DNA of 64,000 bases from Psychroflexus aestuariivivens. GTDB lineage: Bacteria > Bacteroidota > Bacteroidia > Flavobacteriales > Flavobacteriaceae. The notes under the pieces are model-generated. The model did not search any database, had not been told where the DNA came from, and worked only from the letters and a program-made list of their open reading frames with translations. The stretch lies in the NCBI RefSeq assembly GCF_004010055.1, contig NZ_RQVT01000056.1:62001-126000 (forward strand), given 5' to 3'. Numbering within the stretch: the first letter of the stretch is position 1; every line of letters starts with the position of its first letter. This document shows, piece by piece, positions 3,001 to 46,898 of this stretch. A program made the position numbers and the translations under genes.

Positions 3001-5506
3001 TATCATCCCAAGATAAATCAACACTATTAGTTAATACATTACTTGCTACAACATTTTCTGGTGCATCACAATTTAAGACCTCATCAATTCTAACATCATC
3101 TATAGCAATATCATCGTAAAAACTACTTGATCCTGTAATCGTAAATCTCACCCTTACATTGCCTGTAATGCTCAAATTATCTAGGTCAACTACCCTTTGC
3201 TCCCAATCATTTGTATTGGTATTATAAGTTCCAACATTAGTCCAAGCAGCACCATCGTAGAATTCAACATCTAAAGTTGCACTAGCATTTCCTTCATTAT
3301 CACTTATTTGGTAAAACGTAAGTTCTGGATTAGTAATACTTGAAATATCAATTTCTGGTGAAGTCAATATACTAGGGTCATCTGATCCAGAATCATCTAT
3401 CCATGCAAAATATCCGCCAGATAAAGTTGAATTATTAACAGTTCCATTATCGCCTATATGCTCGCCACTTGGATCATTACTAAAAATCCAATCTTCGCCG
3501 CCTGACATAGTCCAACAGTTTGGAATTTCTCCACTATTTTCAAAATTCTCATAAAAAGGAGCTGCAAAAGCAACACATTCAGTTGTAAAAGTTACTGAAC
3601 TACCAAAATCTCCAAAATCACCGCTTCCACAAGAAGACCTAACATACACTTGGTAAGTCGTAGCAGGATCCATAGTTGTAACTGTAAAGCTTGGAGATCC
3701 ATCATCATCTACAACAGTTTCTCCTTCTGTTTCAGGATCAAAACCTGGTTCACCGTACACAATTTCCCATTCTGTCTCATCTGAACCACTATCCCATGTT
3801 AAATCTGCGCCATTTTCTGAAATATTTGAAAAATCTAAATTAGAAATTGGAAAACATGTTGGAACTTCATCTACACTAATATCATCTAATAAGATATCAT
3901 TGTAATAAGCAAAGCCACCATTAGCTTGACCTGTCACAGTGAATCTAAACTGCACATCACCTGTAATGGTATAACTTCCTAAATCAAGAATAAATCTCAC
4001 CCAATCTTCTCCTAGTAAAGAATCTTGAGTAAGCAAAGTATTCCAAGCTGCACCATCGTAAAATTCAACTTCTAATATATTTATAGCAGCATCGTCCGTA
4101 TTATTACTAAAAGCAAAAAACTGCAAAGCAGGATTAGACAAGGATGACACATCAATAAAAGGTGTCAGTAATGAAGACACCTCTCCATCACCATTATCAG
4201 AACCATCCATCCAAGCAAAGTTGGTACCTCCACCGACTGTATTATCATCAACATCTGAAGCAGCATATCCAGCTCCTGTACTGTATTCCCATGCAGCATC
4301 ACCTGTTTCAGACCAACAATTAGGTGTTGAATCAGAAGCAAAATCTTCTTCAAAAGGAGCTACAAAAGTGTCACAAGGCGTTGTAAATAGAAGTGGCGCT
4401 GATATTTCACTTAAACCACCTGCTCCACAATCACTTGTAATATAAGCTTCGTAATCTGTGGCAGAACTTAAACCTGTTACTAAAACTAAAGTTGTGGTTT
4501 CACTTTCTGTTCCTGATTGTACAGGTGTATCTGTTTCAGGATCATCTCCTGAATTCATAACTATCCACTCATATCCATCTGAAGCATTAGGCACAGCTGA
4601 CCAAGACAAGTCTACAGATGTAGATTCTAAATTATTAAATTCAAATGTATTTGGTGCAATACAAAAAGGTGTTGTAGAAAAGGATTCAGGTCCAACCAAA
4701 ACACTTGTTCCGTCTGTATCACCGCAATCTGCTTGCACATAAAAGTCGTAATCAGTTAATTCAGTTAAACCAGTTACATTAGCTGCATTGGTTGAAGCAG
4801 AGCCAGTAACCACGGGTAAATCAACTTCTGGATCATCTCCTGTAACATAAACTTCCCAAAGATAACCATCTGTTGCTTCACTAACTTCGTCCCAAGTAAA
4901 ATCGGCAGTTTCTGCAAAAGTTTCAACCAACTCTAAACCAAACGGCTGCGGGCAAGTTATATCAACACCTCCACTAATTACAATTTCAAAATCTGTAACA
5001 GAACCATAAGTAAAACTAGCACAAGGATCCAAAGGTATGCTACCGCCTTCTCTTTGCATTATTCTCATTCTTGTAGAACCATTAACAGCATCACTTGGCA
5101 CTGTAAATGTAAAGTTTGACATAGGGTAAGGCGGAGTTCCTGAAGCATCTCCAATAGATTCTCCACTTTCAAAAATAGCATCTGAATCAAAATCAATCCA
5201 AGCCTCACCAATACTTGCCCAATTTCCTCCACAAGTACCAAATAAAACATCAACTGTGTAGGTATTACCAGCAACTAAATCTGCAGTTTGTGATGACGTC
5301 ACATCTTCAACACCTGTAATTCCTCCTCCAGTACCAGTTCCATTGCAACCAGTAAAAGAAATAACATCATTTTCACCTACCAAATCAACAGATTCTAGGT
5401 TTGTATCAAAATCATTTGACGGTCCGCCATCAACACAATAATCCTGAGCTGACAGATGCCAACTTCCTAGCAGAATTATCAAATAAAATAGTAATTTTTG
5501 TCTCAT
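1..5506 (-). CDS. Giant secreted FN3/MAM-repeat protein, 3' end outside window
   Basis: Continuous minus-strand frame starting at ATG 5506-5504 and open to the left edge, giving about 1835 residues without the C-terminus. It starts with a signal peptide (MRQKLLFYLIILLGSWHLSAQ). Residues ~24-180 resemble a GEVED domain (IDFDSDAIFESGE). Then follow two FN3-like modules and alternating FN3-like and MAM/jelly-roll-like modules. The latter share a CW near the start and end in DDV or DDI plus a short acidic tail. At ~1183-1290 lies a different module with TWGDGWNG. Acidic, Thr/Ser-rich composition fits a surface or released adhesin or enzyme scaffold. Such proteins in this group normally leave through the type IX system, but the C-terminal sorting domain would lie outside the window. 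No catalytic domain was seen. Exact function unknown. Confidence 0.85.
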   Translation of the reverse strand, partial: MRQKLLFYLIILLGSWHLSAQDYCVDGGPSNDFDTNLESVDLVGENDVISFTGCNGTGTGGGITGVEDVTSSQTADLVAGNTYTVDVLFGTCGGNWASIGEAWIDFDSDAIFESGESIGDASGTPPYPMSNFTFTVPSDAVNGSTRMRIMQREGGSIPLDPCASFTYGSVTDFEIVISGGVDITCPQPFGLELVETFAETADFTWDEVSEATDGYLWEVYVTGDDPEVDLPVVTGSASTNAANVTGLTELTDYDFYVQADCGDTDGTSVLVGPESFSTTPFCIAPNTFEFNNLESTSVDLSWSAVPNASDGYEWIVMNSGDDPETDTPVQSGTESETTTLVLVTGLSSATDYEAYITSDCGAGGLSEISAPLLFTTPCDTFVAPFEEDFASDSTPNCWSETGDAAWEYSTGAGYAASDVDDNTVGGGTNFAWMDGSDNGDGEVSSLLTPFIDVSSLSNPALQFFAFSNNTDDAAINILEVEFYDGAAWNTLLTQDSLLGEDWVRFILDLGSYTITGDVQFRFTVTGQANGGFAYYNDILLDDISVDEVPTCFPISNLDFSNISENGADLTWDSGSDETEWEIVYGEPGFDPETEGETVVDDDGSPSFTVTTMDPATTYQVYVRSSCGSGDFGDFGSSVTFTTECVAFAAPFYENFENSGEIPNCWTMSGGEDWIFSNDPSGEHIGDNGTVNNSTLSGGYFAWIDDSGSDDPSILTSPEIDISSITNPELTFYQISDNEGNASATLDVEFYDGAAWTNVGTYNTNTNDWEQRVVDLDNLSITGNVRVRFTITGSSSFYDDIAIDDVRIDEVLNCDAPENVVASNVLTNSVDLSWDDNPDATNGYIWEVYLNGVNPTTNSPEFTGTVPAGTTSETISGLNSSTTYQAYLISDCDADGQSFVSSSVTFTTECDVFVAPFYEDFESNGDNLPDCWSRAGNTDEEWVFTDPPGSGYVGSGGTLNGNSESDGGLAWVDDSTPHAIDTRLETPLIDVSSLSVPQVSFYRISDNEGNSNVDFRVEVWDGAAWSEVYFSNQNTVNEEWELIEVPLNNITITGDIKVAFIIDENNGTDFYDDVAIDDVRVDEAPTCLKPSNLTATNVGDTSFDLAWANQDDAVNGFTYYVFAAGDDPENDTPLFTDVVSAGTFSTTISGLSASIEYEIYIEADCDTAGLSDLSNPLSVTTAGCPVEDQCEYTFILTDTWGDGWNGNTMDIIQDGVTIATVGSDFGTGDEQIEIVTLCDGANFELYWNSGGSFAGEVGVEVYDFALNNVYTMTPGSESADSSLFTGNVDCTPATCPAPENITLDNLTSTEADFSWDAVAEATNGYQWLLFDSGANPDTDTAVESGTVTTENVTVDSGLVIGDEYDFYVQADCDADGLSSLGFVIPTTFEVPCQTFIAPYIEDFADNSIPACWSENGDDSWDFSTTAGYAATDVEDHTMGGGTNYAWLDGSGNADGDVTSLLTPMVDVSTLSVPTLEFFVFSNNTDDAAINILEVEFYDGANWNTVLLQDTLLGSDWAGFLVNLTQFNITGDVQARFTVTGNANGGSTFYNDILIDDVGFIEAPSCFPPSNVSESNITNNSVDLSWDAGADETQWEIIYGEPGFDPLTEGSTELDDDGTPGYTLSGLNSGTTYQLYVRSFCGTDDVSTFAAPVTITTECDTFVAPFYEDFESNGDEVPNCWSRAGNANEEWVFTDPPAFSYVGSGGTLNGNSESDGGLAWVDDSDPHAIDTRLETPFIDVSALTVPQLSFYLISDNEGNTNVDFRVEIWDGAAWNEVFFSNQNTADNAWEEIIVLFDDLTITDDIKVAFIVDENNGTDFYDDVAIDDVRVMEAPTCP
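34..540 (-). repeat. MAM-like module copy A2 in the giant secreted protein
   Basis: Encodes residues ~1656-1825. It is clearly similar at DNA and protein level to 2275-2781, sharing stretches such as NGNSESDGGLAWVDDS and FYDDVAIDDVRV. Divergence is mostly at third codon positions, which points to a duplicated coding module kept under selection. Confidence 0.85.
545..1341 (-). repeat. Two-module block B2 (MAM-like + FN3-like)
   Basis: Residues ~1389-1654. It matches 3581-4378 in the same module order. Shared stretches include FFVFSNNTDDAAINILEVEF-like sequence in the MAM module and WEIVYGEPGFDP in the FN3 module. The unit of duplication was therefore at least two modules. Confidence 0.85.
2275..2781 (-). 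repeat. MAM-like module copy A1 in the giant secreted protein
   Basis: Partner of the copy at 34-540 (residues ~909-1078). The two protein modules are nearly the same over most of their length. The linkers to the neighbouring FN3-like modules are less alike. Confidence 0.85.
3581..4378 (-). repeat. Two-module block B1 (MAM-like + FN3-like)
   Basis: Partner of the block at 545-1341 (residues ~377-642). It has the same MAM-then-FN3 order and shares distinctive segments such as QDSLLGEDW versus QDTLLGSDW and YGEPGFDP. Confidence 0.85.
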
Positions 5507-5610
5507 AATAACTTATTTAAATTATGTTTTAATAATTGAAAGTAAAAATAGAAAACCAAATTGAAATAAAAAACAAATTCACAACTAAATATTAACGCAT
5601 TTTTAATATA

Positions 5611-5646
5611 AAAAAAACAAAGCCTTATTCTAAGAACAAGGCTTTA
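5611..5646 (-). terminator. Rho-independent terminator after fabI
   Basis: Arms 5619-5626 (aaagcctt) and 5638-5645 (aaggcttt) form an 8-bp stem. On the minus strand a T-rich run (5611-5617) follows. It lies just past the fabI stop codon and so ends the recN-fabI side transcript before the giant secreted-protein gene. Confidence 0.8.
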
Positions 5647-5673
5647 AATTAATTTATGTTAAAATCAATTTCG

Positions 5674-6486
5674 CTAATCTTCCATAGCTTCTATGACTTC
5701 CTGACTAACGCCCATATTAGAAAAGCCACCATCGTGGAATAAATTCTGAAGCGTTACTTTTTTAGTTAAATCTGAAAATAAAGTAATCGTATAGTCTGCG
5801 CACTCCAATGCTGTCGCATTTCCTAAAGGTGACATTTTATCTGCATAATTCATGAATCCAGTAAAACCTTTGACGCCTTGCCCTGCAGATGTTGGTGTTG
5901 GAGATTGGGAAATTGTATTGACTCTTACTTTCTTGTCTTTTCCAAAGAAATAACCAAAACTTCTAGCAACAGATTCTAAATATGCCTTATTGTCTGCCAT
6001 ATCATTATAATCTGGAAATACGCGTTGGGCTGCCATATAAGTTAGTGCTACAATACTTCCCCATTCATTCATAGCTTCTTTCTTATGAAGCACTTGCATT
6101 ACTTTATGAAAAGACATCGCAGAAATATCTAAACCTTTATGCGTCCAATCATAATTTTGGTCGGTGTAATGTTTGCCTTTTCTTACATTTACAGACATCC
6201 CAATAGAATGTAATACAAAATCAATTTTCCCTCCTAATATTTCTTGAGCCTTCTCAACTAAGTTTTCTAAATCTTCAACTTTGGTCGCATCAGCAGGAAT
6301 AACCTCAGAATTGGTTTGTTCTGCCAATTTATTGATCGTTCCCATACGTAATGCTACAGGTGCATTGGTCAACACAAAACTCGCGCCTTCTTCATGAGCA
6401 CGTTCTGCAGTTTTCCATGCGATAGAATTTTCATCTAAAGCACCGAAAATAATTCCTCGTTTTCCTTTTAATAAATTATATGACAT
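5674..6486 (-). CDS. fabI: Enoyl-[acyl-carrier-protein] reductase (NADH)
   Basis: 270 residues, the usual FabI length. It catalyses the last reduction of each fatty-acid elongation cycle in the cytoplasm. The N-terminus carries the FabI-type nucleotide-binding loop (GIIFGALDENSIAW). The catalytic Tyr-x6-Lys is visible as Y160 and K167, with Y150 upstream. SQSPTPTSAGQGVKGF matches the substrate-binding loop region of FabI. The gene lies 39 bases downstream of recN on the same strand with no terminator between, and is followed by a strong hairpin. The short-chain dehydrogenase fold is shared with other enzymes, but these motifs and the length are specific to FabI. Confidence 0.96.
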   Translation of the reverse strand: MSYNLLKGKRGIIFGALDENSIAWKTAERAHEEGASFVLTNAPVALRMGTINKLAEQTNSEVIPADATKVEDLENLVEKAQEILGGKIDFVLHSIGMSVNVRKGKHYTDQNYDWTHKGLDISAMSFHKVMQVLHKKEAMNEWGSIVALTYMAAQRVFPDYNDMADNKAYLESVARSFGYFFGKDKKVRVNTISQSPTPTSAGQGVKGFTGFMNYADKMSPLGNATALECADYTITLFSDLTKKVTLQNLFHDGGFSNMGVSQEVIEAMED

Positions 6487-6525
6487 TTGATTTTAATTTT
6501 AATTATGAATATTATGTAAAGTTAA

Positions 6526-8178
6526 TCATTTTAACAAAGAAGCGGCATGTGCCATTGCTGAATCTGAAGTTTTATCGCCACCAAGCATTTCTGCTAACTC
6601 CTGAAGTCGTTCTTCTTTCGATAAAACTTTGATGTTGGATTGTGTTTTCTGATTGACTGTTGTTTTAAAAACCTTGAAGTGCTTCTCTCCTTTTGCCGCA
6701 ATTTGTGGCAAATGGGTAATCGAAATAACTTGCATTGATTTTGCCATATCTTGCATAATTAATCCCATTTTATTAGCCACGTCTCCAGAAACACCAGTGT
6801 CAATTTCATCAAATACAATTGTTGGTAAATTGTCGTATTGCGCTAACAAACTTTTAATAGCTAAAGTAATTCGTGACAATTCTCCACCTGATGCTACTTT
6901 TTTGATGTCTTGTAAAGCATTGCCCTTATTTGCTGAAAACAACCATTGAAAATGATCTGCGCCTCTAGCAGCAAATTCACCAGTAAATTCACTCTCAATC
7001 TTTAATTGCGCATCTTCTATTCCTAAATCAGCCAGCATGTTTTCAACTGAAGTTTTTATAATTTTGGTAGTGTTTTTACGACTCTTATAAAGTTCTTTTG
7101 CAATAGATTCTAATTTCGACTTTTGTTCTGAAATAGCTTTTTCAAATTTCTTTAGTTCAGCTTCTGCATTTTGTTTAAGACTTACTTTTTCTTCTAATTC
7201 AGATTGAATTTCAATTAGATTCTCAATATTGTCAACGTGATGTTTCTTCTGAAGATTATAAAGGTTTTCCAATTTAGAATTGATGTCTTCAAGCAAAACA
7301 GGATTAACTTCAAGTTCTTCAAATTCATTTTGGGTTTCTTGTGAAATATCTTCCATTTCTATCAGCACACTAGAAATGCGTTCAGATAAATCTTTGAAAC
7401 TAGAATCCAACTGAAATACTTTTTGAAAATTTTGATTCGCCTCTCGCAACTGTGTAATAATGCCAATAGATTCATCTTCAAATAAATTCACACTTGTACC
7501 GATGCGCTCTTGCAGTTCTTCAACGTGACTAAGTTTATTTTGTGTAGATTCCCAGTCTTCTTGAATGCCAGGTTTCAGCTTTGCTTCTTCTAGTTCAGTG
7601 AGCAAAAAAAGATTATAATCATAAGCTTCATCTGCTTTTTGTTGCTGAATTTTTAAGGTTTCAAATTCTTGTTTTAAAACTTGAAATTTTTTGAAATTGG
7701 CTTGATATTCTTTGGAAATGTCTGCATTCTGCGCCACAATATCCAAAATTCGATATTGGTAATTTGTGCTTCCTACAGAAAGCGTTTCATGTTGACTGTG
7801 AATGTCAATCAAATGGTTTCCTACCGTGCTCAGATTGCTTAATTTTACTGGCGAGTCATTGACAAAAGCACGTGATTTTCCGGAAGGTAATATTTCTCGA
7901 CGAATAATGGTTTCATCTTCGTAGTCTAAATCATTAGATTCGAAAAGTGATTTCAAACCGTATTCAGCAATCAGAAAGTGACCTTCTATCACACATTTTT
8001 TTTCTGAATCACGAATAGCATTCAAATCGGCACGCTTGCCAAGAAGTAAGGATAAAGCACCTAGAATAATAGATTTTCCAGCGCCGGTTTCTCCAGTAAT
8101 TATTGAAAAGTTTTCAGTTAAGTCTAAACTGATATCTTCTATTAAAGCGTAATTTTTTATTCCTAAAGCTGTTAGCAC
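6526..8178 (-). CDS. recN: DNA repair protein RecN
   Basis: 550 residues, the standard length. RecN is an SMC-like ATPase acting in recombinational repair of double-strand breaks. Walker A is GETGAGKS (29-36). A long central coiled-coil region rich in Glu, Lys and Gln spans ~150-370. The C-terminal half has the ABC signature ASGGELSR and Walker B TIVFDEIDTGVSG, followed by SITHLPQIAA. It sits between porD and fabI, 61 bases after porD, probably in the same transcription unit. The ATG at 8178 places Walker A at the expected distance from the N-terminus. Confidence 0.97.
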   Translation of the reverse strand: MLTALGIKNYALIEDISLDLTENFSIITGETGAGKSIILGALSLLLGKRADLNAIRDSEKKCVIEGHFLIAEYGLKSLFESNDLDYEDETIIRREILPSGKSRAFVNDSPVKLSNLSTVGNHLIDIHSQHETLSVGSTNYQYRILDIVAQNADISKEYQANFKKFQVLKQEFETLKIQQQKADEAYDYNLFLLTELEEAKLKPGIQEDWESTQNKLSHVEELQERIGTSVNLFEDESIGIITQLREANQNFQKVFQLDSSFKDLSERISSVLIEMEDISQETQNEFEELEVNPVLLEDINSKLENLYNLQKKHHVDNIENLIEIQSELEEKVSLKQNAEAELKKFEKAISEQKSKLESIAKELYKSRKNTTKIIKTSVENMLADLGIEDAQLKIESEFTGEFAARGADHFQWLFSANKGNALQDIKKVASGGELSRITLAIKSLLAQYDNLPTIVFDEIDTGVSGDVANKMGLIMQDMAKSMQVISITHLPQIAAKGEKHFKVFKTTVNQKTQSNIKVLSKEERLQELAEMLGGDKTSDSAMAHAASLLK

Positions 8179-42851: not shown

Positions 42852-42881
42852 AAAAGACCTGAGAGAAATTTCAGGTCTTTT
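42852..42881. terminator. Bidirectional terminator
   Basis: Perfect 11-bp inverted repeat: 42852-42862 (aaaagacctga) and 42871-42881 (tcaggtctttt) around 8 bases. It lies between the convergent collagen-motif lipoprotein gene and the YeiH gene, with T-rich tails on both strands. Confidence 0.88.
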
Positions 42882-42885
42882 GCAT

Positions 42886-43863
42886 TTAAAAATAGTTAAT
42901 ATAGCTAATAAAAAGTAAGATTTGAAACAAAAACAGCAATACACCAAGAATCAATGATTTACCAGCAATTTGAAACAAAGATTTTAGTTTGATTTTATAG
43001 CCAATACCAACCATGGCAACATTCAGAAGAAAATTTCCAAAACTTGACACTTCTGATGTCATCGCTTCTGAAATGAAAGAAAACTGACTAAAACCGATGG
43101 CTACTAGAAAAAATATGATGAAGAATGGAAAACCAACGTTTTGATTTTGAGCTTGATTTTTACTACTGAAAGTCACATAAACAATCAACAAAAGCGGAAT
43201 AAGTAACAATACGCGTCCCATTTTGATCACGGTAGCCAAAACGCCTACCTCTTCATTCACCGAAAACCCCGCACCAACGACATGTCCCATTGATTGTAAA
43301 ACGCCACCAATAAAAAAACTGGTTTCATCTTGACTAAAATGCAAATACACAGCAACTATTGGTAGAAGAAACAAACCGATGGTGCTCAGCAAATTGATAA
43401 TTCCGATAGCCATGCCAGTTTCGGATTCTTTAGATTTCAATATTGGTGAAATTGCGCCAATTGCTGCGGAACCACAGATAGCACTGCCGGCGCCGAGCAA
43501 AAGATTTAGCTTTGGGTCAAGTTTGAAAATTTTACCAAAAAATAAAGCCAAAGCAATAACTGCCAAAACGCTGAAAAGGATAAACCACCAGAAATCTGAA
43601 TTTATTTCTCCCAACACGGAAAAATTCAGTCCAAACCCAATCAAAACAATAGCAGTTTCCAAAATGTTTTTTTCAGAAAAAGCCATGCCACTTTGAATTG
43701 GTTTTAGTGAAATCGGAATATTGGCAAGCACAATTCCAAAGATCAACGCCAAGCTGGTTGTATTCAACCAAAAGCTGTATTCTGAAATAAACTCTGCTAA
43801 GAAAGTGAGTCCGAGTGCCAAAAATACACCAGGACTCCACTTTACTATTTTTTTCATCATCAA
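42886..43863 (-). CDS. YeiH/UPF0324-family membrane protein (putative sulfate exporter)
   Basis: 325 residues with about ten membrane segments. SLALIFGIVLANIPIS, LIGFGLNFSVLGEI, LGAGSAICGSAAIGAISPIL and GGVLQSMGHVVGAGFSVNEE are clear UPF0324 (YeiH) motifs. The family is often annotated as putative sulfate or sulfur-anion exporters; the transported species has rarely been tested. It is the last gene of a minus-strand unit with two exported DsrE-like proteins and a SoxB-like metallophosphatase, and overlaps the DsrE gene before it by 4 bases. That context supports a sulfur role. Confidence 0.9.
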   Translation of the reverse strand: MMMKKIVKWSPGVFLALGLTFLAEFISEYSFWLNTTSLALIFGIVLANIPISLKPIQSGMAFSEKNILETAIVLIGFGLNFSVLGEINSDFWWFILFSVLAVIALALFFGKIFKLDPKLNLLLGAGSAICGSAAIGAISPILKSKESETGMAIGIINLLSTIGLFLLPIVAVYLHFSQDETSFFIGGVLQSMGHVVGAGFSVNEEVGVLATVIKMGRVLLLIPLLLIVYVTFSSKNQAQNQNVGFPFFIIFFLVAIGFSQFSFISEAMTSEVSSFGNFLLNVAMVGIGYKIKLKSLFQIAGKSLILGVLLFLFQILLFISYINYF

Positions 43864-44288
43864 ATTCCTGCTTTAATATAATACCAACCTTCAGCTTGTT
43901 TTTCAACAATTTCTTTGATGCCCATCGGAACAAATTTTACAAAATCAAATAATTCTGATTTCGATATATTTTTCGCATTCAGGGTGTTTTCGCAAGCCTT
44001 AAATTCTACTCCTTTGGCTTCCAATTCTGCCAATTCAACACCATAATTTGAACCTTCTGAAACCAAAAACTGAATTCCGCCCGAATGTACAACAACACTG
44101 AGTTTTGCAGACGGCCAATCACGAGTTAAATTTTTCAATTGATTGACCAAGGCTTTTTGACTTGTTGGAGAAGCGTCCGTCAGTTGAAAAACAACTTTGT
44201 AATCTTCGTTTTCAGACTGTGCGTTTGCAGATTTTGAATATCCAAATGTCAGAATTAAGACAAATATAATATGTTTAAAAAAATTCAT
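43860..44288 (-). CDS. Exported DsrE-family protein
   Basis: 142 residues with signal peptide (MNFFKHIIFVLILTFGYSKS, then ANAQ). The mature part has VVFQLTDASPTSQKALVNQL, KLSVVVHSGGIQFLV and a single Cys in FKACENTLNAKNI, the place of the reactive Cys in DsrE/TusD proteins. It ends in VPMGIKEIVEKQAEGWYYIK, typical of this exported subgroup. DsrE proteins carry sulfane sulfur on that Cys. It lies 20 bases after the SoxB-like gene and overlaps the YeiH start, so co-expression is near certain. The actual sulfur reaction is not known. Confidence 0.87.
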   Translation of the reverse strand: MNFFKHIIFVLILTFGYSKSANAQSENEDYKVVFQLTDASPTSQKALVNQLKNLTRDWPSAKLSVVVHSGGIQFLVSEGSNYGVELAELEAKGVEFKACENTLNAKNISKSELFDFVKFVPMGIKEIVEKQAEGWYYIKAGI

Positions 44289-44308
44289 TTTTTGTGTTTT
44301 TTAGTTTT

Positions 44309-45943
44309 CTAATGAAAATGATAATCTGTATCGGGTAACTGTGAAAGCACGTCTTCACCTAAATCTAAAGCTTTAGCACGTCCATCTTTCACTGGAGAAA
44401 TGGTATCTTTTGTTTTTAGATATTCTGCCAAAACCTCATGAATTGTGAAATCATGAACTTTGGGATTTTTCACGTTTGGCAATCTGCAAATCATATCCAA
44501 AGCCTCGCCATCACGACGACAAGCTGAAATTGAATAGTATTTATTCATATCCATCGGTTCGCCATTTACTGTCAGATTTACAACTCGATTTCCTTTCTTT
44601 GCCTTAGCATTAAATTCTAGTTCCATTCCAGAAAAACGGACTAACCAGCCACCGAAACGCTCTGTCCCAACCTCTGCAAACACATTGTGCAATTCTTGCT
44701 CCAGCCAATTTTTTATTTGTTCACCTTTAGCTTCTCCGGTTTTAACTTTTTCATTGACAGGCAACATATTCCAAATGTAACTGTATGTGATTGCGGCTGG
44801 TTTTCCGTCTTTCGGCACCAACGGCGGGCTGAATCTAAAACCATTGGATAACGAAATATCTGTATTCATTTTCCATCTGGCTGCATCGGTAATCATGTTG
44901 TCCATCGGATTTTCGACCACAAAATATCGATAAAGCGGTGTGTTTGTGTAGCCTAAAATTTGATCTGTTTTGGATTTATAAGGCTGAAGTGCGGAATCTA
45001 TAGATTTCTGAACTTCAGGATCTGGCGGATATTTTTCTGGATCAACTTCCATCAAATCATATGTTTCATTGATTATTCTTCCGTCTTTAACTTCCAAATC
45101 CAAACTACCGACAAAACTTCCAAAAGCGCCGGGTTCAGTAACTTTTGCAAACTTTCTTTGTAAAGGTTTCCGGATGCGTTCGTGGGTGTCGTTGCCCAAA
45201 ACATAATCGATATCTTTTAAAATGTCTTGATCTGCCAAATGAACTTGCTTGGCAATTCCAATATGCGTCACCAAAAACAAAATATCAACGTTTTGTTCTG
45301 TTTTCAATTCAGAAATCAACGCAGACAAATTGGATTCTATGGATTTGAAATCAATCCCTTTACTGAAAGATGGGTTTTGTCTTACCGGAATTTCTGGATC
45401 GTTATAAGCGATAAATCCTAACTTTGTATCACCAACTTCTTTGATAAAATATGGCGGAAAAAGCAGATTTTCGCTGGCTTCATCGTACATATTGGCCGCA
45501 ATAACTTGCGGTTCGTATGCCCGCAGAGCAGAAAGCATTTTTGACTTTCCGTAAACCACTTCCCAGTTTCCTGGAATAAGAAAATCGTAACCCATTTTAT
45601 TGACGATGTCAGGAAAAATTTGACCTTCAGATAAAGCTGCAACTGCACTGCCTTGGATTAAATCGCCCCCGTCCAATACAATTGTAGCATCTTGATTTTC
45701 GGATTTTACGTCATCAAAAAGCGTTTTGATAGACGCCATGCCACCACGTCTTTTGAAAATAATTTCGTTATTTTCCCAGAAAAATTCATCGTGAACATTC
45801 ACTTGACCATGAATGTCGGCAGTCTGCAAAATGGTGATTTTTTGGGTGTCGCTATTTTTCTTTTCTTTTGAATTTTCATTTGCATTTTTGCAGGATAGAA
45901 CTGTCAATCCTACAAAAATGAGAACTATAATTTGTTTCAACAT
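44309..45943 (-). CDS. SoxB-like metallophosphatase/5'-nucleotidase-family lipoprotein
   Basis: 544 residues, lipoprotein Cys18. The N-terminal calcineurin-like domain has TADIHGQ (D43, H45), DGGDLIQGS (D94), GNWE (N126, W127), THIG (H227) and NDTHE (D252, H254). In 5'-nucleotidases the last two blocks are normally GNHE and GHTH, so the catalytic His is Trp and one metal His is Asp. From memory, SoxB thiosulfohydrolases also carry Trp there (GHWE), and the C-terminal half with NGFRFSPPL, ITYSYIWNMLPVNEK and GEQIKNWLEQELHNVF resembles SoxB. The surrounding DsrE and YeiH genes fit a sulfur-ester hydrolase better than a nucleotidase. No SoxYZ or SoxXA seen. Confidence 0.75.
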   Translation of the reverse strand: MLKQIIVLIFVGLTVLSCKNANENSKEKKNSDTQKITILQTADIHGQVNVHDEFFWENNEIIFKRRGGMASIKTLFDDVKSENQDATIVLDGGDLIQGSAVAALSEGQIFPDIVNKMGYDFLIPGNWEVVYGKSKMLSALRAYEPQVIAANMYDEASENLLFPPYFIKEVGDTKLGFIAYNDPEIPVRQNPSFSKGIDFKSIESNLSALISELKTEQNVDILFLVTHIGIAKQVHLADQDILKDIDYVLGNDTHERIRKPLQRKFAKVTEPGAFGSFVGSLDLEVKDGRIINETYDLMEVDPEKYPPDPEVQKSIDSALQPYKSKTDQILGYTNTPLYRYFVVENPMDNMITDAARWKMNTDISLSNGFRFSPPLVPKDGKPAAITYSYIWNMLPVNEKVKTGEAKGEQIKNWLEQELHNVFAEVGTERFGGWLVRFSGMELEFNAKAKKGNRVVNLTVNGEPMDMNKYYSISACRRDGEALDMICRLPNVKNPKVHDFTIHEVLAEYLKTKDTISPVKDGRAKALDLGEDVLSQLPDTDYHFH

Positions 45944-45954
45944 TGTTTTATTTT

Positions 45955-46401
45955 TTAAGGAATGAATACATTATGACCTTGCGCTTGTAACTGATAAATT
46001 CGAATAAAAGCGTTGGGAACAGTTTCAAAATCGTCGATTAGGTTTGTTTTGGAAACGCCTAGTTTTTTCATGGCAACTTCACAAACGCTAACTTTCATGT
46101 TAGAAGAGTTTTGATTTTTCACAAATTCAGCTAAATCTCCATCTTTGATTAATTTTTGGACAATTTTCCCCCAGACTACAATTTCGAAATTTTTATCGGC
46201 TAAGTCATTAGATTTCATTTCCTGAAAAGTGCCAAAAGCAAATCTGAAGTGTTTTTCTGTGCTGACACCCATGACAAATTTTTCAGATTGTTTCAAGTCC
46301 AAAACGACTTCAGGAGACAAAGAATTTTGTGCATTTAGAATGTTCGCACTAAAAAACAACAGCATCAAAATGCTGATTTTATATATTTTATAAGATAACA
46401 T
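45955..46401 (-). CDS. Exported DsrE-family protein, second copy
   Basis: 148 residues with signal peptide (MLSYKIYKISILMLLFFSAN, then ILNAQ). Mature part: FRFAFGTFQEMKSNDLADKN, FEIVVWGKIVQKLIKDGDLA and the single Cys in MKVSVCEVAMKKLGVSKT, matching the DsrE reactive-Cys segment (CxxAMxxLG), then FIRIYQLQAQGHNVF. It is 11 bases before the SoxB-like gene. It differs from the other DsrE gene of the operon in the Cys surroundings, so the two may be partners with different jobs rather than recent duplicates. Confidence 0.83.
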   Translation of the reverse strand: MLSYKIYKISILMLLFFSANILNAQNSLSPEVVLDLKQSEKFVMGVSTEKHFRFAFGTFQEMKSNDLADKNFEIVVWGKIVQKLIKDGDLAEFVKNQNSSNMKVSVCEVAMKKLGVSKTNLIDDFETVPNAFIRIYQLQAQGHNVFIP

Positions 46402-46469: not shown

Positions 46470-46898
46470 CTAAAACTGTTTGGGCGGTTGTTTCTGTTCG
46501 GAAAGAAAAGGTGATCTATAAAACACCTTGTAAAATTCAGTATGACTGAAGTGAAATTTTGGTCTGTAAATTTCAAATTCCTGATTTTCTATAAAATCAG
46601 CGGAATTTGAACAAATTTCGATACAGTGTTGTTGATTTGAGTCTGAAGTTGACGATTTGTCATTGGAAATCATTCCCAAATCTGGCATGCCGAGTGCTTC
46701 AGCTTTGTTCTGAAATTCAATTTTATTTTTGCAACTACGTTTTACTTCAACTTCTGTCAACGTCAAGTCTGAAACCAACATAGCAGAACTTGGCGTGACA
46801 TAAATCAATACAAAAATAAGTGCAATTATCGGTTTCAAAATATTTGGCTGAATTGTTTTTGCAATAATAAGTATTTCAATAAAAGCCTTTAGTAACAT
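46470..46898 (-). CDS. Small exported protein of unknown function
   Basis: 142 residues. A basic then hydrophobic N-terminus (ILKPIIALIFVLIYVTPSSA) suggests export. The mature part has three Cys (KRSCKNKIEFQ; QQHCIEICSNSADF) and ends with FYRSPFLSEQKQPPKQF. I do not recognise the family. It stands 68 bases ahead of the DsrE/SoxB-like/YeiH genes on the same strand and could be the first gene of that unit. The H-C-x3-C arrangement would allow metal or persulfide binding, but nothing shows it. Confidence 0.6.
   Translation of the reverse strand: MLLKAFIEILIIAKTIQPNILKPIIALIFVLIYVTPSSAMLVSDLTLTEVEVKRSCKNKIEFQNKAEALGMPDLGMISNDKSSTSDSNQQHCIEICSNSADFIENQEFEIYRPKFHFSHTEFYKVFYRSPFLSEQKQPPKQF

Follow-up and report, generated by a model that had tools for sequence, protein, structure and literature searches.

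A stretch of 64,000 nucleotides from Psychroflexus aestuariivivens (contig NZ_RQVT01000056.1, positions 62,001 to 126,000; referred to here as the window) carries four minus-strand open reading frames (ORFs) in the order DsrE1-SoxBL-DsrE2-YeiH, extending from 46401 to 42886 (Table 1). The gaps between them are 11, 20 and −4 bases, confirming the single tight unit of four genes that was recognized in a preliminary description of this DNA. The source genome is 3.1 Mb in 64 contigs and is 99.98% complete. PF02635 has just two matches in the entire genome, DsrE1 and DsrE2, located directly on either side of SoxBL, indicating that the adjacency of DsrE and SoxBL is more than chance. As described below, the module is real, conserved as a SoxBL-DsrE pair and linked to sulfur genes. 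The terminator-like hairpin next to YeiH is weak evidence by itself; four such sites were detected in the region, where shuffled sequence gives 2.6 on average.

Table 1. Features of the SoxBL-DsrE unit. Positions are those of the window.
Feature	Position	Strand	Description
DsrE1	45955..46401	-	148 aa; exported protein of the DsrE family with one Cys (C107); proposed carrier of sulfur in the periplasm
SoxBL	44309..45943	-	544 aa; SoxB-like hydrolase, lipobox-like N terminus
DsrE2	43860..44288	-	142 aa; second exported DsrE-family protein, single Cys
YeiH	42886..43863	-	YeiH/PSE-family inner-membrane transporter; 325 aa from TTG, 324 aa from the next ATG (43860)
Terminator-like hairpin	42852..42881	-	11 pairs, directly 3' of YeiH; consensus match only

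By profile search, SoxBL contains the Pfam domains metallophosphatase and 5_nucleotid_C. Among the NCBIfam models, SoxB (TIGR04486) ranked first with 258 bits, followed by the multifunctional nucleotidase model (132 bits) and UshA (121 bits). The SoxB score is below the cut-off of 550 bits; a Chlorobi-type SoxB scores 858 bits to the same model. The N terminus, read by eye, is lipobox-like (...VLSC), and a Tat-like signal was detected with a simple motif in 14 of 105 relatives. The preliminary description had called this protein a lipoprotein resembling SoxB, which is borne out for a SoxB-like protein, not for SoxB itself.

The relatives were collected as 112 full-length SoxBL proteins, which were reduced to 105 after removal of those with identical last 480 residues. 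Over this non-redundant set, D43, H45, D94, N126, W127, H227, H254, C475 and C486 are invariant, and D252 of the D252-T-H254 motif is kept in 104 of the 105. Some of the invariant residues are presumably metal ligands, as we take from work on UshA and SoxB. All 105 proteins have Trp in place of the His of the nucleotidase GNH motif (GNW for GNH), a residue that we take to be catalytic in UshA. The motif reads GNWEV in SoxBL, HWE[FWY]T in SoxB, with HW in 8/8 SoxB rows, and HW[ED]F in type B, a second SoxB-like group of about 480 residues. Among 12 rows labelled as nucleotidases, His precedes [ED] in 10, mostly as GNH[ED]FD, and W is found in two haloarchaeal rows (GNWD). At the position of UshA GGDGY, SoxBL carries a sequence of the type ACxRxGxPxxxxCR. 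The GGDG[FY] loop, which we assume to be the base-stacking loop of the UshA/CD73 5'-nucleotidases, is not present in SoxBL, but it is a weak mark of nucleotidases since GGDG is found in only 2 of the 12 nucleotidase-labelled rows, with GGDN in a third.

A tree was constructed from 55 rows, including 22 SoxBL, 8 SoxB, 13 type B and 7 Bacteroidota nucleotidase-like proteins, two haloarchaeal proteins, and UshA with two other nucleotidases; the midpoint root was used for drawing only. SoxBL forms its own clade of 22 rows with 100/100 support, outside the separate clade of the 8 SoxB rows, which is also supported at 100/100. SoxBL, SoxB, type B and the two haloarchaeal proteins are united in a group with 97/95 support, while UshA, the two nucleotidases and the Bacteroidota nucleotidase-like group stay outside. 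The topology joining SoxBL to the Bacteroidota nucleotidase-like group was rejected by the approximately unbiased (AU) test with p 0.013, on a tree from which six long-branch rows (UshA and five others) were left out. The check proposed in the preliminary description, a phylogeny of the metallophosphatase, thus groups the protein away from the nucleotidases, in agreement with the loss of the GNH motif. Two haloarchaeal plasmid relatives (L187 and L189) have GNWD and an RRPGDP...C stretch in common with SoxBL, and lie on a long branch near it.

The AF2 model of SoxBL (pLDDT 89), for which 24 SoxBL sequences were included in the structure alignment, matched SoxB 2wdc best in VIA-align, with Z 39.9 and a root-mean-square deviation of 2.3 over 484 residues, followed by the putative nucleotidase 3ive (Z 38.5). 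Based on the profile ranking, the VIA-align Z, the tree and the GNW motif, SoxBL is a SoxB-like protein, located on the SoxB side but not SoxB proper.

DsrE2 scored 39.7 bits to the Pfam DsrE family and DsrE1 24.0 bits, just above the cut-off of 22.7. Each contains one Cys (C107 in DsrE1 and its counterpart in DsrE2), which is invariant in a 15-row alignment; among the DsrE ORFs from the loci of the survey, a redundant set of 114, all but one (113) retain it. The N termini of both, read by eye, consist of a hydrophobic stretch ending in ...NAQ. Two exported DsrE-type proteins with a single Cys each, as first described, are thereby confirmed. The AF2 model of DsrE1 (pLDDT 87) matches the solved DsrE-type folds 2pd2, 1l1s and DsrEFH 2hy5_C, and DsrE2 is of the type that adjoins SoxA/TsdA-type cytochromes in other Bacteroidota, with 32-46% identity. 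Sulfur-transfer proteins of the DsrE/TusD type are thus alike in fold and in the single conserved Cys. The known DsrEFH and TusBCD proteins are cytoplasmic, in contrast to the DsrE proteins described here, which are exported and linked to a hydrolase. DoxX and DsrE are fused into one protein at three loci, two of Adhaeribacter and one on a Pontibacter plasmid (L116:10683-11573, L105:10733-11611 and L176:515-1399), which suggests that membrane DoxX and exported DsrE work together and are physically coupled. DsrE genes do not exclude a Sox carrier, since plasmid pOB3b1 of Methylosinus trichosporium (L198) carries soxZ-soxB, after which come two genes of the DsrE family and DUF302.

YeiH scored 217 bits to Pfam Cons_hypoth698 (PF03601; cut-off 24.5) and 139.6 bits to TIGR00698, under the cut-off of 232.6. 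In the survey described below, 4 of the 87 loci, the window among them, have YeiH close to SoxBL, in one case as a partial frame of 164 aa (L140); it further lies beside SoxBL at one shorter locus (L137) and on one mobilizable Pontibacter plasmid. The hosts beyond the window are two Adhaeribacter loci, Hymenobacter, Salinimicrobium (the partial frame) and the Pontibacter plasmid. In Salmonella, YeiH is required for sulfite resistance (PMC12880088), and in Hyphomicrobium, thiosulfate raises the yeiH transcript 526-fold, the highest induction of any gene (PMC11582611). With the published YeiH/PSE putative sulfate (sulfite) exporters, including SuyZ, the protein shares PF03601 and the reported link to sulfite and thiosulfate, but it is below the TIGR00698 cut-off and resides inside a SoxBL-DsrE unit. 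A sulfur-anion exporter had been predicted from the start; the YeiH family is indicated by Pfam, though not by TIGR00698, and the anion is more likely sulfite than sulfate in view of the same two reports.

The neighbourhood was surveyed for those 87 of the 105 non-redundant SoxBL loci that have 5 kb or more of sequence in both directions. The contig scan kept the best 80 of 568 relatives, and the survey leans for this reason to the clade of the window. DsrE was found within 6 kb of SoxBL at 76 of the 87 loci, and at 58 on the same strand and within 300 bp. The other neighbours were DoxX (53 loci), TlpA (42), MBL/rhodanese (41, a label that takes in lone rhodanese domains), TauE (25), the YeeE halves (22 and 21), porins (19), SoxA/TsdA-type cytochrome (17) and cytochrome bd (12). 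DoxX or a SoxA/TsdA-type cytochrome was present at 69 loci. The MBL-rhodanese proteins are persulfide-dioxygenase-like, and a CRP-type regulator is, like TauE, often nearby. Two layouts recur, one being small ORF - DoxX - DsrE - SoxBL - TlpA, and the other YeeE halves - SoxA/TsdA-type cytochrome - DsrE - SoxBL - OprD-type porin. None of the usual partners was found at loci L077, L082 and L084. The order DsrE-SoxBL-DsrE-YeiH was not found outside the window among the surveyed loci. The four-gene unit as a conserved entity was therefore rejected, and of the neighbourhood conservation raised in the preliminary description it is the SoxBL-DsrE pair that holds.

SoxBL is also carried by plasmids of Pontibacter akesuensis, Runella rosea and Runella slithyformis (44-60% identity, after which the listing drops to 32%), and the SoxBL islands on the Pontibacter and Runella plasmids are compact. 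Type B proteins adjoin SoxBL at loci L176, L098, L137, L144, L163, L167 and L037, and the L176 copy (5336-6781) scores 342 bits to SoxB. Another member of type B is located on a Novosphingobium plasmid (L183) together with TauE, TlpA, DsbA and cytochrome bd.

The genes bordering the unit adjoin each other in two congeners, where about 145 bp lie between them as compared with 4.2 kb here, indicating that the unit was either gained in this organism or lost in the congeners. Its GC content is 36.1%, compared with 34.0% over the window. A minus-strand ORF of 142 aa with a hydrophobic N terminus (46470-46898), 68 bp upstream of DsrE1, falls inside the interval absent from both congeners. Neither Pfam nor NCBIfam matched it at E 0.1, and a relationship to the small exported ORFs that precede SoxBL elsewhere found no support, the hhalign probability being at most 1.4% against three small-ORF families.

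Genome-wide searches were carried out for the presence of full-length SoxBL in 299 sampled Flavobacteriaceae-type genomes (16 positive) and 395 genomes of the phylum (19 positive), both including the window genome; with three SoxBL genomes common to the two samples, a total of 32 was obtained. Three further genomes of the family sample matched at E 1e-30, through other groups only. As controls, we used three Chlorobi-type genomes, an assignment based on the sox genes they carry and on their position in the phylum. SoxY (PF13501) was over the cut-off in none of the 32 SoxBL genomes, the window genome included, as compared with 3/3 controls (SoxZ was not searched); a single sub-threshold match in the SoxBL genomes had 21.4 bits and an internal stop. 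The canonical Sox pathway was rejected on this ground. The SoxA/TsdA-type cytochrome (PF21342) was detected in 18/32 SoxBL genomes and 3/3 controls. In the phylum sample it was present in 13 of the 19 SoxBL-positive genomes and in 24 of at most 357 negative ones, after 19 positives of the control (Chlorobi-type) family were left out (p 1.7e-10, uncorrected for relatedness). It had been noted at the outset that no SoxXA, SoxYZ or cytochrome is visible; this agrees with the window genome, which has neither a SoxY nor a SoxA/TsdA-type match, but not with the relatives, many of which have the cytochrome or DoxX.

MBL-rhodanese matches at E 1e-30 were found in 32/32 SoxBL genomes and 0/3 controls, but this family is broad. 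A close orthologue was present in 14/16 SoxBL-positive and 38/283 SoxBL-negative Flavobacteriaceae-type genomes (Fisher p 4e-10, again without correction for relatedness). The orthologue of the window genome, with 61% identity, is located on another contig, C25. There (C25:149000-168000, L093), in a region unlinked to the window, it stands with a lone rhodanese-type ORF, a small GGCA-motif protein and a CRP-type regulator. Sulfite dehydrogenase as the general downstream enzyme was rejected, PF00174 being matched in 6/32 SoxBL genomes, the window genome not among them, and in 1/3 controls.

The gene content, the fold, the loss of GNH, the linkage to DsrE, the lack of a SoxY match and the conserved Cys are direct observations, and with these in hand we consider it fairly probable (about 0.6) that the unit serves as an accessory module of the envelope and processes thiosulfate- or tetrathionate-type sulfur without SoxYZ, by steps involving thiosulfonate-DsrE, SoxBL, MBL-rhodanese and YeiH. 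DsrE probably stands in for SoxYZ as the carrier. In the first step, a thiosulfonate group would reach the DsrE cysteine (DsrE-S-S-SO3-). In the relatives, thiosulfate may first be oxidised by the TsdA-type cytochrome or the DoxX protein; in this organism, the group may come from tetrathionate made elsewhere, or by way of an oxidant for which there is no candidate enzyme. SoxBL, tethered as a lipoprotein, would then hydrolyse the terminal sulfonate off as sulfate, leaving a DsrE persulfide, as its family, motifs and linkage suggest; this would be the reaction of SoxB on SoxYZ. The sulfane sulfur would enter the cytoplasm for oxidation to sulfite, which may be catalysed by the persulfide-dioxygenase-like MBL-rhodanese protein, of which the gene is present. 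Finally, YeiH may export the sulfite, in line with the published YeiH phenotypes, and TauE may fill this role in many relatives. The two end steps, SoxB action after TsdA without a Sox carrier and sulfite export by YeiH, are plausible from the Erythrobacter (PMC7608252) and YeiH (PMC12880088, PMC11582611) work. Of the Sox-independent periplasmic sulfur pathway postulated in the preliminary description, an envelope sulfur module without SoxY is supported, while the exact four-gene form is not conserved.

A more specific version is put forward tentatively, with the odds somewhat against it. The exported DsrE cysteine would replace SoxYZ as a covalent thiosulfonate carrier, and the invariant Cys pair of SoxBL would be catalytic, possibly kept reduced by the TlpA encoded next to it in many relatives. 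The module would then represent a second, independent carrier-bound system of periplasmic thiosulfate oxidation, distributed widely across Bacteroidota and spread by plasmids.

A number of observations weigh against the proposed processing of thiosulfate- or tetrathionate-type sulfur by this module. SoxBL has Asn before the Trp where SoxB has His, and Asp-Thr-His where SoxB has His-Thr-His, and because of these two replacements its chemistry may differ from that of SoxB. The joining of SoxBL and type B is supported at just 80/40, leaving the order among SoxBL, type B and SoxB unsure in the midpoint-rooted tree. The fold is not decisive, the lead of SoxB over the best nucleotidase being 1.4 in Z, and Foldseek gave a near-tie between SoxB (E 1.3e-41) and the nucleotidase 3ivd (2.1e-41), with TM scores of 0.81 and 0.77 by query and 0.81 and 0.83 by target. 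The fold thus favours SoxB slightly, and the assignment therefore rests on motif, profile, tree and linkage. As for linkage, there is no DsrE within 6 kb at 11/87 loci, and the neighbourhood alone does not fix the substrate because nucleotidase-like proteins keeping GNHD also reside in sulfur islands (L041:7300-9018 and L176:3688-5208). The L041 protein adjoins relatives of the SoxA/TsdA-type cytochrome and of the porin, in a genome without full-length SoxBL. MBL-rhodanese orthologues exist in the 38 genomes lacking SoxBL. In the window genome, PF21342 gave no match and the one DoxX match is away from the unit, so that the first oxidation step is without a known enzyme here; for this organism, detoxification, or the scavenging of tetrathionate that other organisms produce, may therefore apply.

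Among the other explanations, SoxBL might hydrolyse free tetrathionate or higher polythionates directly, as has been proposed for SoxB in Erythrobacter, with DsrE only collecting the released sulfane sulfur and handing it on instead of carrying the substrate. This would agree with the co-occurrence of PF21342 cytochromes and SoxBL, with the 11 loci just mentioned, and with the soxB mutant of the TsdA-first Erythrobacter strain, in which tetrathionate rose and zero-valent sulfur was not detected (PMC7608252). We regard it as unlikely, in view of DsrE being the commonest partner (76/87 loci, DoxX next with 53), the almost invariant DsrE Cys, the fusion of DsrE to DoxX at three loci and the lack of a SoxA/TsdA-type match in the window genome. 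Similarly doubtful is detoxification rather than energy gain, by which the module would strip and export reactive sulfur such as persulfide, thiosulfonate and sulfite from the envelope, with YeiH as the sulfite pump. The nearby SoxA/TsdA-type cytochromes (17/87), cytochrome bd (12/87) and porins (19/87) of the relatives suit thiosulfate respiration instead. The window unit itself, however, has neither an oxidising enzyme nor an electron acceptor, PF00174 is not matched in its genome, two congeners are without the unit, as in an accessory distribution, and YeiH is a sulfite-resistance factor (PMC12880088). This explanation overlaps with the others concerning the chemistry, and our confidences in them do not sum to 1.

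Far less probable than either is that SoxBL is a periplasmic 5'-nucleotidase or phosphoesterase with DsrE as an incidental neighbour. Although public records label relatives as bifunctional metallophosphatase/5'-nucleotidase, the 5_nucleotid_C domain is present and the fold resembles that of a nucleotidase almost as much as that of SoxB, a nucleotidase is unlikely because the catalytic His is Trp in all 105 proteins, as in SoxB, and the trees place SoxBL on the SoxB side; the AU test and the sulfur-gene neighbourhood point the same way.

SoxBL shares with SoxB (TIGR04486) the fold, the Trp for the nucleotidase His, the S[PN]GxR and GG...R motifs and periplasmic export. In contrast to SoxB, it forms a clade of its own, falls short of the model cut-off, has Asn and Asp for two His, and carries the invariant Cys pair, the lipobox-like start (in the window) and a genome background without SoxY over the cut-off. 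The known precedent is the TsdA-SoxB-SDO tetrathionate pathway of Erythrobacter flavus 21-3 (PMC7608252), in which SoxB acts after TsdA on tetrathionate without a Sox carrier and a dioxygenase follows downstream; the module described here is probably a variant of such SoxB-family sulfur oxidation. As in that pathway, many SoxBL relatives possess a TsdA-type cytochrome, while the window genome has none. Unlike that pathway, an exported DsrE adjoins the hydrolase, along with DoxX, TlpA, YeiH or TauE, and the hydrolase is not SoxB proper. The same source lists Bacteroidetes among the genomes with both TsdA and SoxB homologues (PMC7608252), and for marine sediment another reports 21 metagenome-assembled genomes with SoxB but without other Sox genes, TsdA being present in 8 (PMC12345210). 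Searches of open-licence papers in PubMed Central, listing at most 20 papers each, gave no title or abstract opening that describes the SoxBL-DsrE module; papers outside these listings may hold a description.

Marine waters and sediments are rich in heterotrophic Bacteroidota. The public records of L176 and L188 name SoxBL 'bifunctional metallophosphatase/5'-nucleotidase', hiding it from sulfur surveys. Since SoxBL is below the SoxB cut-off, is labelled as 5'-nucleotidase and is not accompanied by SoxY, surveys of sox genes would tend to miss the module. If the proposed reading is true, the module would provide a testable set of enzymes for Sox-independent turnover of thiosulfate or tetrathionate, and would give exported DsrE proteins a new role and YeiH a role within a sulfur-oxidation operon.

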